From Planctomyces sp. (GTDB lineage Bacteria; Planctomycetota; Planctomycetia; Planctomycetales; Planctomycetaceae): a DNA stretch of 38,487 nt. Each line of letters begins with the position of its first letter. Position 1 is the stretch's first letter. Positions 31,339 to 35,484 of this stretch are shown here, piece after piece. Both the position numbers and the translations under genes were made by a program. The stretch lies in NCBI GenBank assembly GCA_013822855.1, contig PNLE01000012.1, positions 1 through 38,487 on the forward strand, read 5' to 3'. The notes below the pieces were generated by a model. That model saw nothing but the letters and a program-made list of their open reading frames with translations. It was not told the origin of the DNA and made no database searches.

Positions 31339-33971
31339 GCCGGTTGTCCCTCGTGTTTTGCCTGACTCTGCTCAGTTATGCCGTGCTGGCTTGCGGCAAC
31401 GACTTTGCCATCAGTGCGGCGATGAGCGCTGAGCCCACGCGCATCGCCATCCTCCCGGAAACAATCCGGCTGTCGTCGCCCCTTCCATCACAGCAGCTCC
31501 TCGTGCAGCGGATGGCGGGAAATGTCTCGCTGGGGCCGGTCGCGGATGACCAGCACGTCATCAAGTGGGCTGTGGCGAATCCCGAAATCTGCATCGTTGA
31601 AGAAGGGCGCGTCGTCGCCAAGGCGAACGGCCAGACGATGCTCACCGCGACCATTGCTTCCAAGGAAGAGGGTGCCCCCGGGGAGAAAACTGGCGAGAAA
31701 GTTGTCGCCCAAGCTCAAGTGACGGTGGAAGGCTTCGATCCCGCCATTCCTTGGGTTTTCCGCAACCATGTCCAGTCGGTCCTCAGCAAGACCGGCTGCA
31801 ACATGGGGGCCTGCCACGGAGCTGTCGCAGGGAAGAACGGCTTCCGCCTCTCGCTGCGCGGCTACGATCCCGAGGGGGATTACTTCCTCATCACCCGCCA
31901 CGCCCGGGGTCGCCGCATCACGCCGCACGATCCCGGCCGCAGCCTGCTCCTCACCAAGCCGACCGGTGCGATTGCCCACAAGGGGGGCGTCCGTTTCACG
32001 GAGGATTCCCCCGAGTACCGCGTGATCTCCCAGTGGATCGCCCAAGGGCATCCCGGCCCTATCGCGGATGAACCCCGCATCACCAAGTTGCAGGTCTATC
32101 CCTCCCTCAACCGGCTCCAGGCGGGCGATAAGCAGCAGTTGCTCGTCATGGCCGAATTCACCGATGGCCGCCGCGAGGATGTCACCCGCTGGGCCAAGTT
32201 CACCGCCACCAATCATTCCGTCTGCACCGTCGTCAACGAGGGCGAAAATCAGGGCCTCGTCACGGTCAATGGCAGCGGTGAAGGCTCGATTGTCGCCTGG
32301 TACCTGGCCCAGAACGTCATTGCCACGGTGACCGTTCCGCTGGTGCAGGATGTCCCGCCTCAAGCCTTCGCCCGGAAGTCGGGGCTGGGGAAAATCGACG
32401 AACTGATCCTCGCCAAGCTCGAGGAACTCAACATCCCCCCCAGCCCGCCATGCAGCGACGGCGAGTTTCTGCGGCGGCTCTCCCTCGATCTGCTGGGTGT
32501 GCTGCCCACCGCCGACGAGGCCGAAGCCTTCCTCGCCTCGAACGACCCGGACAAGCGGACGCACCTCGTCGATCGCCTGCTGGCCCGGCCCGAGTTCGTC
32601 GATTATTGGACCTATCGTTGGAGTGACCTGCTCCTTGTCAGCGGCGACCGCCTGCGGCCCGACGCTGTGAAGGCTTACTCCGCCTGGATCCGCGAACAGG
32701 TCGAGAAGAACACTCCCTGGGATCAGATTGCCCGCGGCGTGATCCTCGCCAAGGGGAGCACGATCACCAACGGAGCCGCCAACTTCTACGCACTCCATCA
32801 AGACCCGCTCGACATGAGCGAGACCGTCTCGACCGCGTTTCTGGGCATGTCGATCAACTGCGCCCGCTGCCACGACCACCCGCTCGAAAAATGGACCAAC
32901 GACGAGTATTACGGCATGGCCAGCCTCTTCGCCCGCGTTCGCGGCAAGGGCTGGGGTGGCGACTTCCGCGCGGGCGACGGCAACCGCACCATCTTTCTGG
33001 CCGATCGCGGCGAAGTGATCCAGCCCCGCACCGGTGAACCACAGCTTCCCAAGCCACTCAACGGAGAGGCGATCGCGTTCGATGCCGAAGGTGACCGGCG
33101 GGAACATCTCGCCCAATGGCTGACCGCCCGGGAGAACCCCTATTTTTCGCGGGCAATCGTCAACCGCGTCTGGGCGAACTTCATGGGGACGGGCCTGGTC
33201 GAAGCAGTCGACGACCTCCGCCTGACTAACCCCGCCAGCAACGAAGCCCTGCTCAACTATCTGGCCAATGACCTTGTCGATCACCAGTACGACCTGCGGC
33301 AACTCATGCGGCAGATCGTCCTCTCGGACGCCTATGGCCGGTCGAGCCAGTCCATGGAGGAGAACGCCAAGGACGACCGCTACTACTCCCACTTCCGCCC
33401 CCGGCGGCTGTCGGCGGAGGTGATGCTCGATGCGTTGTCACAGGTGACGGCCGTCCCCACGGAGTTCAAGGACTACCCCGCCGGCACCCGGGCTTTGCAG
33501 CTCAAGGACGCCGCCGTCGGTTCGTACTTCCTCAGCACCTTCGGCCGCCCCGCCCGCTTGCTCACGTGCGAATGCGAACGGACGGAGGAGCCCAGCATGA
33601 CCCAGGTTCTCCACCTGATGAACGGCGACACGCTGATGAAGAAGTTGGAAAGCGACAAGTGCGTCGTCAACACCCTCTTCGCCACTGGGAAAGAGGACGC
33701 CCCGAAGCCCGACTCCTCAGCAAACAACTCCAAAGAAGCTGAGCCCGCCTCGGCGAACGCTCTCGCCAACCGGCCCGACTTGAGCGGCCCGGAACTGACC
33801 GCCGCCGTCACCCGCCTCTACCTCTCCGCCTTCAGCCGGTATCCCTCGGGAGATGAACTCCGCCAGATCCACGAAGTGATCGACCAAACCCCCGCCTCCG
33901 CCCGCCCCACGGCCCTCCAAGACCTCCTCTGGAGCCTCCTCACCAGCCGGGAGTTCCTGTTCCAGCATTGA
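31335..33971 (+). CDS. DUF1549/DUF1553 surface protein with Ig-like (BIG2) domain and cytochrome-like Cys motifs
   Basis: 878 residues from the ATG overlapping the DUF1501 stop. A signal peptide covers about 1-30; C20 in AVLAC could be a lipobox but is not ideal. Around 155-161 is CNMGACHGA, a motif frequent in planctomycete proteins of this type. A BIG2-like segment follows (LQVYPSLNRLQAGDKQQL, about 255-320). DUF1549 begins at LDELILAKLEEL (about 355) with FLRRLSLDLLGVLPT, NCARCHDHPLEKW (C-x-x-C-H, about 510), and DUF1553 (HLAQWLTARENPYFSRAIVNRVW) later. C-x-x-C-H can hold c-haem. The protein is thought to act with DUF1501 at the cell surface. Confidence 0.92.
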   Translation: MSRLSLVFCLTLLSYAVLACGNDFAISAAMSAEPTRIAILPETIRLSSPLPSQQLLVQRMAGNVSLGPVADDQHVIKWAVANPEICIVEEGRVVAKANGQTMLTATIASKEEGAPGEKTGEKVVAQAQVTVEGFDPAIPWVFRNHVQSVLSKTGCNMGACHGAVAGKNGFRLSLRGYDPEGDYFLITRHARGRRITPHDPGRSLLLTKPTGAIAHKGGVRFTEDSPEYRVISQWIAQGHPGPIADEPRITKLQVYPSLNRLQAGDKQQLLVMAEFTDGRREDVTRWAKFTATNHSVCTVVNEGENQGLVTVNGSGEGSIVAWYLAQNVIATVTVPLVQDVPPQAFARKSGLGKIDELILAKLEELNIPPSPPCSDGEFLRRLSLDLLGVLPTADEAEAFLASNDPDKRTHLVDRLLARPEFVDYWTYRWSDLLLVSGDRLRPDAVKAYSAWIREQVEKNTPWDQIARGVILAKGSTITNGAANFYALHQDPLDMSETVSTAFLGMSINCARCHDHPLEKWTNDEYYGMASLFARVRGKGWGGDFRAGDGNRTIFLADRGEVIQPRTGEPQLPKPLNGEAIAFDAEGDRREHLAQWLTARENPYFSRAIVNRVWANFMGTGLVEAVDDLRLTNPASNEALLNYLANDLVDHQYDLRQLMRQIVLSDAYGRSSQSMEENAKDDRYYSHFRPRRLSAEVMLDALSQVTAVPTEFKDYPAGTRALQLKDAAVGSYFLSTFGRPARLLTCECERTEEPSMTQVLHLMNGDTLMKKLESDKCVVNTLFATGKEDAPKPDSSANNSKEAEPASANALANRPDLSGPELTAAVTRLYLSAFSRYPSGDELRQIHEVIDQTPASARPTALQDLLWSLLTSREFLFQH

Positions 33972-34083
33972 GAATGGCATGCGCGCGGATGTTCTGTCTG
34001 TTCGTCAACCGAAGTATTGAGGCCCGTGTCAGACAAAAATGGGGCCTACAAGGTTCTTGTTGTGTCCAAAATCCATCATCTGG

Positions 34084-35055
34084 TTAGAATAAATAGAGAT
34101 CAGGATGGTCGAACGTATCATCGTTGTTGAAAAGATTCATCATGAAAAACTGTTGCAACAACGCCTTCTTGGATTCGGTCATGCGATCGAAGTAGGTCGG
34201 CGAAATTACAAAGTTTTCCGCGTGCTGCAGAACCATTCTTGAAATCAGATATTTTTGATAATCACCGCACTGCTCAGTGATTTTCGAACACCAGTGCCTC
34301 GCATGATGTTCGTGCTCCTTGGTGAATGAAAACAGAACGATAACTTCGCCTTCTTGTGGAAAGATATTGATCGCCACGAGAGGTGTAGTACTTGATTTGT
34401 ACTCATCCAAAGTGATCAAGGCACTCAATTCAATTGTGGGACCCTGCTCTTTCAGAACAATAGATTTGTGTTCCCAGTGATCGTTCCTGCTGTCTGTTAA
34501 GGCGGCATCTGCAAGTTCTTTATAATTTTTTGTCCTGATTGCCGCAATTATCGCGCGCGTTGCATGCATGCCGACTTCGCTTTCGGAATGTGCGATCTCT
34601 AAATTCTTTTCAACACGCGAGCGGTAGTTTCCTTGGGCAATCATCGCCGCGTGCCATGTGGCATAGCATTCTTTTAGCGTGGCCCGGTACGCCAGCAGGA
34701 ATAGCTGTTCTTGGTCTTCAAGAGAAATAGCCCCGTTGTCAATTCTGCGAAACAGCTCCGAGTCATGGCGTGCGCAAAGCCCTGGAAAGGTTGTTGCTTT
34801 ATGGATTCCTTGTTGAACAAATCGAATGTGGTCTGACTTTCCAATAGAACTGATTGCGTCAGGTGCGATTACATGGCCATCCTCTGATAGATGTGTAAGC
34901 ACAGATTGTTTTGGTATTGAATGTGATCTGATTGCTGGAAGGGTACATTGTCCTTCTGGTGAAAGGCACTTTGAAGGTGTGGCCTTAAGCGAGTTGAAAA
35001 AGAAGCTTTTGTGTTGGTTCCATGCTGTTTGCTTGTGGGGCTGCATAGGATTCAT
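34084..35055 (-). CDS. Unfamiliar protein with Cys/His motifs in an AT-rich segment
   Basis: About 323 residues, coded in DNA visibly richer in A/T than its neighbours and with different codon use (many AAA, AAT, TTT), which suggests transfer. I cannot assign a function. An N-terminal part has C-x6-C followed by AIRSHSIPK (about 30-50), then HVIAPDA, and at about 85-100 TTFPGLCARHDSELF. I recall uncharacterised proteins with a similar run of C, SH and C-x2-HD motifs, which could bind zinc. A region at 115-180 is helical; the last 140 residues look like a mixed fold. The start is uncertain: ATG 35055 or 35046, or TTG 35064. No partner gene is obvious. Confidence 0.6.
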   Translation of the reverse strand: MNPMQPHKQTAWNQHKSFFFNSLKATPSKCLSPEGQCTLPAIRSHSIPKQSVLTHLSEDGHVIAPDAISSIGKSDHIRFVQQGIHKATTFPGLCARHDSELFRRIDNGAISLEDQEQLFLLAYRATLKECYATWHAAMIAQGNYRSRVEKNLEIAHSESEVGMHATRAIIAAIRTKNYKELADAALTDSRNDHWEHKSIVLKEQGPTIELSALITLDEYKSSTTPLVAINIFPQEGEVIVLFSFTKEHEHHARHWCSKITEQCGDYQKYLISRMVLQHAENFVISPTYFDRMTESKKALLQQFFMMNLFNNDDTFDHPDLYLF

Positions 35056-35217
35056 CCAAGACAAAGTGCATCATTACGATGAACGATAGGATAGAGCCTC
35101 GTTTGTTGGCATGTTGCATGTAGAATTGAGCGGAAAAATGGCCTGTTGACAATTGATCCGATATATTTAACGTGTGAATCTTTGGGCTCAAAGGTAAAGT
35201 TGTGGAACCGAGGAAAA

Positions 35218-35484
35218 TCATTCAACCCGGTTCAATCCCAGCCTGGATCTAATCTCGGCTAGTGCTTCATCGATCGGCCGACCGAGTCCGGCTTGCATCT
35301 GGGCCAATCCCTCGGCGATCGCATCCCGATCCTGCTGGCGACGCAACGCCTCCATCGCTCGGCGATGGGTTTCGGAGTCGACAAGGACATACGATCACGA
35401 CGTGACGGGATCAACGACTTCGAGTTCGTGGTCGCCGATCGCGTGCAAAGCATCTGCCAGTTCTTTGGTCAGTTTCACAGCCAT
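35218..35484 (-). pseudogene. Antitoxin-like gene interrupted by one in-frame stop
   Basis: Reading the minus strand from the ATG at 35484 gives 29 codons (MAVKLTKELADALHAIGDHE...), a TGA at 35395-35397, then an uninterrupted frame for 58 more codons (SYVLVDSETHRRAMEAL ... LGRPIDEALAEIRSRLG) ending in TGA at 35218-35220. Before and after the stop the sequence joins without a shift, and the two parts together match small planctomycete type II antitoxin-like proteins with EVVDP...YVLVD...HRRAMEALRRQQDRDAIAEG. A single CGA-to-TGA change explains the break. The toxin that usually follows is not visible; the AT-rich segment begins just beyond the final stop. Confidence 0.75.

Follow-up and report, generated by a model that had tools for sequence, protein, structure and literature searches.

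An AT-rich single-gene island in Planctomyces encodes a member of an unnamed Cys/His protein family with a possible role in defense

What is the origin of an AT-rich stretch of ~1.2 kb in the genome of a Planctomyces sp., and what might the one gene that it carries be for? The question arose from an initial annotation of 38,487 nucleotides (positions 1 to 38,487 of contig PNLE01000012.1; hereafter, the window), in which a sharp change of base composition and codon use was seen between a DUF1549-type gene and an antitoxin remnant. The gene in between was suggested to be newly gained, to encode a protein with a possible metal site, and perhaps to be related to defense. Here, the island, its gene, and the relatives of that gene are considered in turn.

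The AT-Rich Island and Its Gene

Two-state GC segmentation of the whole window yields the island as a single maximal AT segment, with its onset just past the stop codon of the DUF1549-type gene and its right end in the antitoxin reading frame (Table 1). The lowest GC content of a 1.1-kb stretch in the island is 0.445, versus a mean of 0.611 (sd 0.021, minimum 0.551) for the remaining 1.1-kb stretches, which places the dip ~8 sd below the rest of the window. Likewise, the island gene has a GC3 of 0.47, versus 0.79–0.82 in the neighboring DUF1501, DUF1549, and DUF4038 genes, and it employs TTA, ATA, and AGA codons that are hardly used by those neighbors. Segmentation, GC3, and codon use thus agree with the break that was initially noted. 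At neither end of the island were repeats, direct or inverted, seen beyond chance-like matches. The closest relatives of the DUF1549 gene (51–64% identity) belong to other genera, and in genome G004 a 203-aa ORF occupies the place after the DUF1549 relative instead of the island gene. For the DUF4038 gene on the right flank, no match was obtained in the six relatives tried, so that an exact empty counterpart of the window site was not recovered.

Table 1. Features of the island and its surroundings in the window. Residues are numbered from the TTG codon at 35064.
Feature	Coordinates	Strand	Basis
DUF1549-type gene, left flank of the island, host-like composition	31389..33971	+	ORF list, composition
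AT-rich island (maximal AT segment)	33989..35225	.	GC segmentation and composition profile
Intact gene for a protein of the unnamed Cys/His family, ~323 aa	34084..35055	-	Full-length alignment to relatives
R127, invariant Arg with which the long first helix of the second domain begins	34684..34686	-	69/69 relatives; model helix 115–149
C97-x2-H100-D101, comprising putative zinc ligands three and four and an invariant Asp	34762..34776	-	69/69 relatives
H48 in the [AS]-H-[ST] motif, a candidate for catalysis or for a fifth ligand	34921..34923	-	69/69 relatives
C40, second putative zinc ligand	34945..34947	-	69/69 relatives
C33, first putative zinc ligand	34966..34968	-	69/69 relatives
Antitoxin pseudogene abutting the island, in-frame TGA at 35395–35397, toxin missing; boundary marker, not a working part	35218..35484	-	

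The island holds one intact gene, within an ORF at 34084–35064 on the minus strand. Translation most likely begins at the ATG at 35055, or else at the ATG at 35046, with the TTG at 35064 as an alternative. No match to the encoded protein was found up to an E-value of 10 in Pfam, NCBIfam, PHROGs, or the anti-phage system profiles of PADLOC (PADLOC-DB 2.0.0). The PDB contained no significant sequence relative, whether the protein was used as a single sequence or as a profile, and a genome-wide scan with the single window sequence returned nothing.

The antitoxin remnant is real: its frame encodes an antitoxin sequence interrupted by a single in-frame TGA. An intact paralogue is present in the same genome on contig C131 (L195:1287–1556), where it is followed by an overlapping ORF judged by eye to be RelE/ParE-like; in the window, the island stands in the place of that ORF. 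With the antitoxin ~160 bp upstream of it in the same orientation, the island gene has the position expected of a toxin and could be taken for the toxin of a type II toxin-antitoxin pair. The chance of this is close to negligible, because the paralogous antitoxin pairs with an unrelated toxin type, no antitoxin recurs beside members of the gene's family in the manner of a conserved pairing, and the composition break falls between the antitoxin and the island gene.

A Family with Invariant Cys and His Residues

Relatives were recovered by translated searches from 25 plasmids, 48 genome contigs, and 25 viral contigs, and they occur in 92 of 5,426 E. coli genomes. Removal of near-copies left 69 proteins, the window's own counted, from many phyla, plasmids, and prophages. 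The arrangement first described in the window protein is present as C33-x6-C40, S47-H48, and C97-x2-H100-D101, and every residue of it other than S47 is identical in 69/69 proteins, so it is not a product of chance. Seven residues (C33, C40, H48, C97, H100, D101, and R127) are invariant across the 69, a count to be read with the knowledge that the 48 genome-contig and 25 viral-contig loci were picked in part by patterns that contain C97, H100, and D101; C33, C40, H48, and R127 figured in no search pattern, and the 13 relatives collected pattern-free carry all seven. A90, F93, G95, and F105 are likewise identical in all 69 proteins. Full-length similarity and the seven invariant residues place the window protein in this family, for which a literature search found no paper.

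As for a metal site, the initial suggestion stands insofar as the Cys/His set, far from varying among relatives, is invariant in a family without a name in four profile libraries; metal binding itself we infer from conservation alone. The most likely putative zinc ligands are C33, C40, C97, and H100.

Such names as the relatives do possess derive from a different part of the protein. An N-terminal SEC-C zinc motif occurs in 46/69 family proteins, and Pfam SEC-C (PF02810) was found in 10 of the 13 pattern-free relatives. Relatives in E. coli, Salmonella, Lactococcus, Vibrio, Sphingomonas, and others are labeled “SEC-C” or “YecA family” in RefSeq because of this N-terminal motif. However, the label covers only ~20 residues and leaves the conserved core unnamed, and the window protein is without SEC-C (0 Pfam matches to PF02810). 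The same short module complicated the phylum counts. A 13-row full-length profile “matched” 361/392 genomes of the phylum, swamped by SEC-C-only proteins, with the core in six only; a core-only profile was therefore used instead. The 13-row alignment was also too divergent for pattern scans.

As a separate observation, SEC-C recurs as an add-on in defense proteins, in CBASS E2/E1-E2 and PDC-S12 profiles. This follows from PADLOC profiles PDLC00833, PDLC00872, and PDLC04917, which match relatives only via a C-terminal SEC-C. In two relatives checked individually, the PADLOC matches span the SEC-C part only.

In the family tree, the window protein belongs to a clade of eight proteins without SEC-C (support 100) that mixes Planctomycetota, Actinomycetota, Alphaproteobacteria, and one viral contig. 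Vertical descent does not explain this mix. An Aminobacter aminovorans plasmid protein (WP_067970346) and a protein from the planctomycete metagenome-assembled genome RIFCSPLOWO2_12_38_17 share 28–34% identity with the window protein over nearly its full length, and like it lack SEC-C and carry a C-terminal L-x-LF. Both are uncharacterized, and their genomic contexts differ from that of the window.

Patchy Distribution and Mobility

Of 392 genomes from the phylum, six contain the core, a count that includes the window's own copy and one decayed copy; with the core-only profile, the gene was detected in 1/4 genomes of the genus and 3/170 of the family. It is single-copy in each of 25 relatives' genomes. 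AT-richness relative to the flanks was observed for 62/65 relatives, so the low GC content of the island is typical of family members in their role as cargo, and an AT-rich donor need not be assumed.

In E. coli, the gene is seen to be inserted as a discrete unit. In the P2-like prophage of strain SCU-124, a 1.78-kb insert that holds only the family gene separates D from ogr, with an imperfect 9-bp repeat, CAA[A/C]TTAGA, at the insert boundaries. Strains RM12581 and M11957 exhibit the empty site, with D followed after ~42 bp by a gene for an identical ogr protein, and in ECOR29 the family gene is carried in a different element. E. coli P2 hotspots are known to hold single-gene prophage defense cargos (PMC9519451, PMC9122126), and the family gene resembles these as a discrete, exchangeable single-gene insert of P2-like prophages. 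Its D-ogr site differs, however, from the endonuclease-portal hotspot of PMC9519451.

Elsewhere, an apparent phage tail gene cluster, its tail genes judged by eye, contains a close relative of the window gene (L092) that is encoded on the opposite strand. Among isolated phage genomes (50,697 records), the family is absent except from two records of a single Listeria locus. The record filed as “Listeria phage LM 4-11-1” (L013; OR846759.1, 28–10221) begins with guaA and contains the SEC-C relative along with Gabija-like genes and a CBASS pair, and it looks like a chromosomal defense site rather than a phage.

Composition, patchiness, mobile-element homes, empty sites in E. coli, and a phylum-mixing tree together give good support to the idea of a newly gained accessory gene, and relatives were not found to be core genes of normal GC content. 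The island is, in all probability, horizontally acquired single-gene cargo.

The gene is evidently lost as well as gained, since a decayed relative in another planctomycete (G264; L134 7168–7961) is in two pieces with in-frame stops. Three near-identical alphaproteobacterial copies, two from Parvibaculum and one from Stappia (L046, L047, and L048; 7938–8141), share the same early in-frame TAA and are a broken cargo held in common. These four copies lend some color to the notion that the window gene, too, is a decaying fragment without function. That is very unlikely, as the ORF in the window is unbroken, can be aligned with its relatives over its full length, and has kept all invariant residues.

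Gene Neighborhoods

No constant partner gene was found beside family members, which suggests a stand-alone protein. Within 8 kb, serine recombinases are near eight loci and tyrosine recombinases near six. In gammaproteobacterial prophages, umuC is directly upstream in five cases and umuD in four, and three of these loci have a SRAP gene on the opposite flank. The prophage cassette umuD-umuC-[SEC-C relative] was noted in L096, L103, L104, and L108 (and L099), with SRAP after it in L096, L104, and L108.

Other members have defense genes for neighbors. In the Listeria locus, GajA-GajB is directly upstream of the family gene, and a CBASS cyclase and 2TM effector are downstream. AbiTii adjoins the G112 gene, AbiD the Vibrio pelagius gene, and PDC-S14 the G495 gene, and the Aminobacter gene has Hachiman and a TIR protein 4–7 kb away. 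No recognized defense or mobility gene adjoins the window copy or L044. PADLOC profile matches numbered 260 in 150 neighbors, versus 31 in 150 controls encoded far from the gene in genomes that carry it, a difference that is suggestive at best because many of the neighbor matches are overlapping profiles on single UvrD helicases. The most frequent PADLOC families match only 2–3 of the 150 neighbors.

The idea that the gene is “perhaps defense-related” thus draws circumstantial support from relatives that adjoin Gabija, CBASS, AbiD, AbiTii, or PDC-S14, and finds no such backing where the neighbors are umuDC, recombinases, or ordinary genes. The umuDC and recombinase settings would suit another role, in which the gene would serve the mobile element itself, through DNA repair, SOS, recombination, or lysogeny control. 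The umuDC and SRAP genes of the gammaproteobacterial prophages constitute an SOS context, not one of defense, and recombinases recur as neighbors. Yet the gene is also found alone on chromosomes, on conjugative plasmids, and in the window island without such genes, and the E. coli insert is isolated, with D and ogr, both late genes, on either side and the lysogeny module elsewhere. Service to the element consequently appears rather unlikely. For action of the family protein in anti-phage or anti-element defense, the circumstantial evidence makes the chances about even.

Predicted Structure and the HNH Question

An AlphaFold2 model of the window protein, built with 59 relatives, is confident, with a mean pLDDT of 89.4 and a pTM of 0.88. 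It consists of a beta-rich Cys/His domain (residues ~24–110), a long helical hairpin (115–187), and then four strands plus helices. Compared with PDB chains and viral models, the fold had no match at an E-value of 0.001 or better; weak PDB matches to sheets of the DcrB/EagT6/PsbP type, non-significant with E-values of at least 0.05, were set aside. A fold search with the Cys/His domain alone, for which the domain-only model was weak, returned nothing.

By eye, the order of C..C, H48, and C..HD resembles the Cys, His, Cys, His motif order of HNH endonucleases (PF01844, PF14279), so that the protein might be a divergent HNH or treble-clef nuclease. In keeping with this, hhalign sets G-x3-ASTFxGFC on the N-x-x-x-C strip of HNH. 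The probability that it assigns, however, is 0.2% against HNH_5 and 0.2% against a diverse HNH set, versus 99.2% for the positive control of HNH_5 against diverse HNH, and the protein was for this reason not filed as HNH. There is, moreover, no Pfam HNH match, no fold match in the searches described above, and no counterpart of the HNH Asn. An HNH identity is therefore improbable. A nucleolytic mechanism is rather unlikely.

A Candidate Stand-Alone Defense Factor

The explanation that best fits the whole, with a probability of roughly 0.5, is that of an acquired single-gene cargo whose product is a stand-alone defense factor with a zinc-site domain. The N-terminal domain would be built around the putative zinc site and be followed by the long helical hairpin and then an alpha/beta domain; most relatives add the SEC-C zinc module as a separate N-terminal unit, which the window clade lacks. 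The protein would presumably work alone against phages or other elements, given that no constant partner gene accompanies it. H48, D101, and R127, positioned by the zinc domain, may form an active or target-binding center, perhaps acting on nucleic acid. A bolder proposal, speculative and on balance unlikely, is that of a phylum-spanning family of single-protein anti-phage enzymes, in which a fold not seen before would be combined with a novel zinc-organized active site (Cys2-Cys-His plus His, Asp, and Arg) and, in some members, a SEC-C docking module.

The core domain of a family that spans many phyla, E. coli and Salmonella included, appears to be without a name or a solved relative, and its database label derives from an accessory motif, one that is missing from a whole clade, the window gene included. 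Should the protein prove to be a defense factor, it would represent a compact, one-gene system that is testable in E. coli and for which the invariant residues to be mutated are already known.
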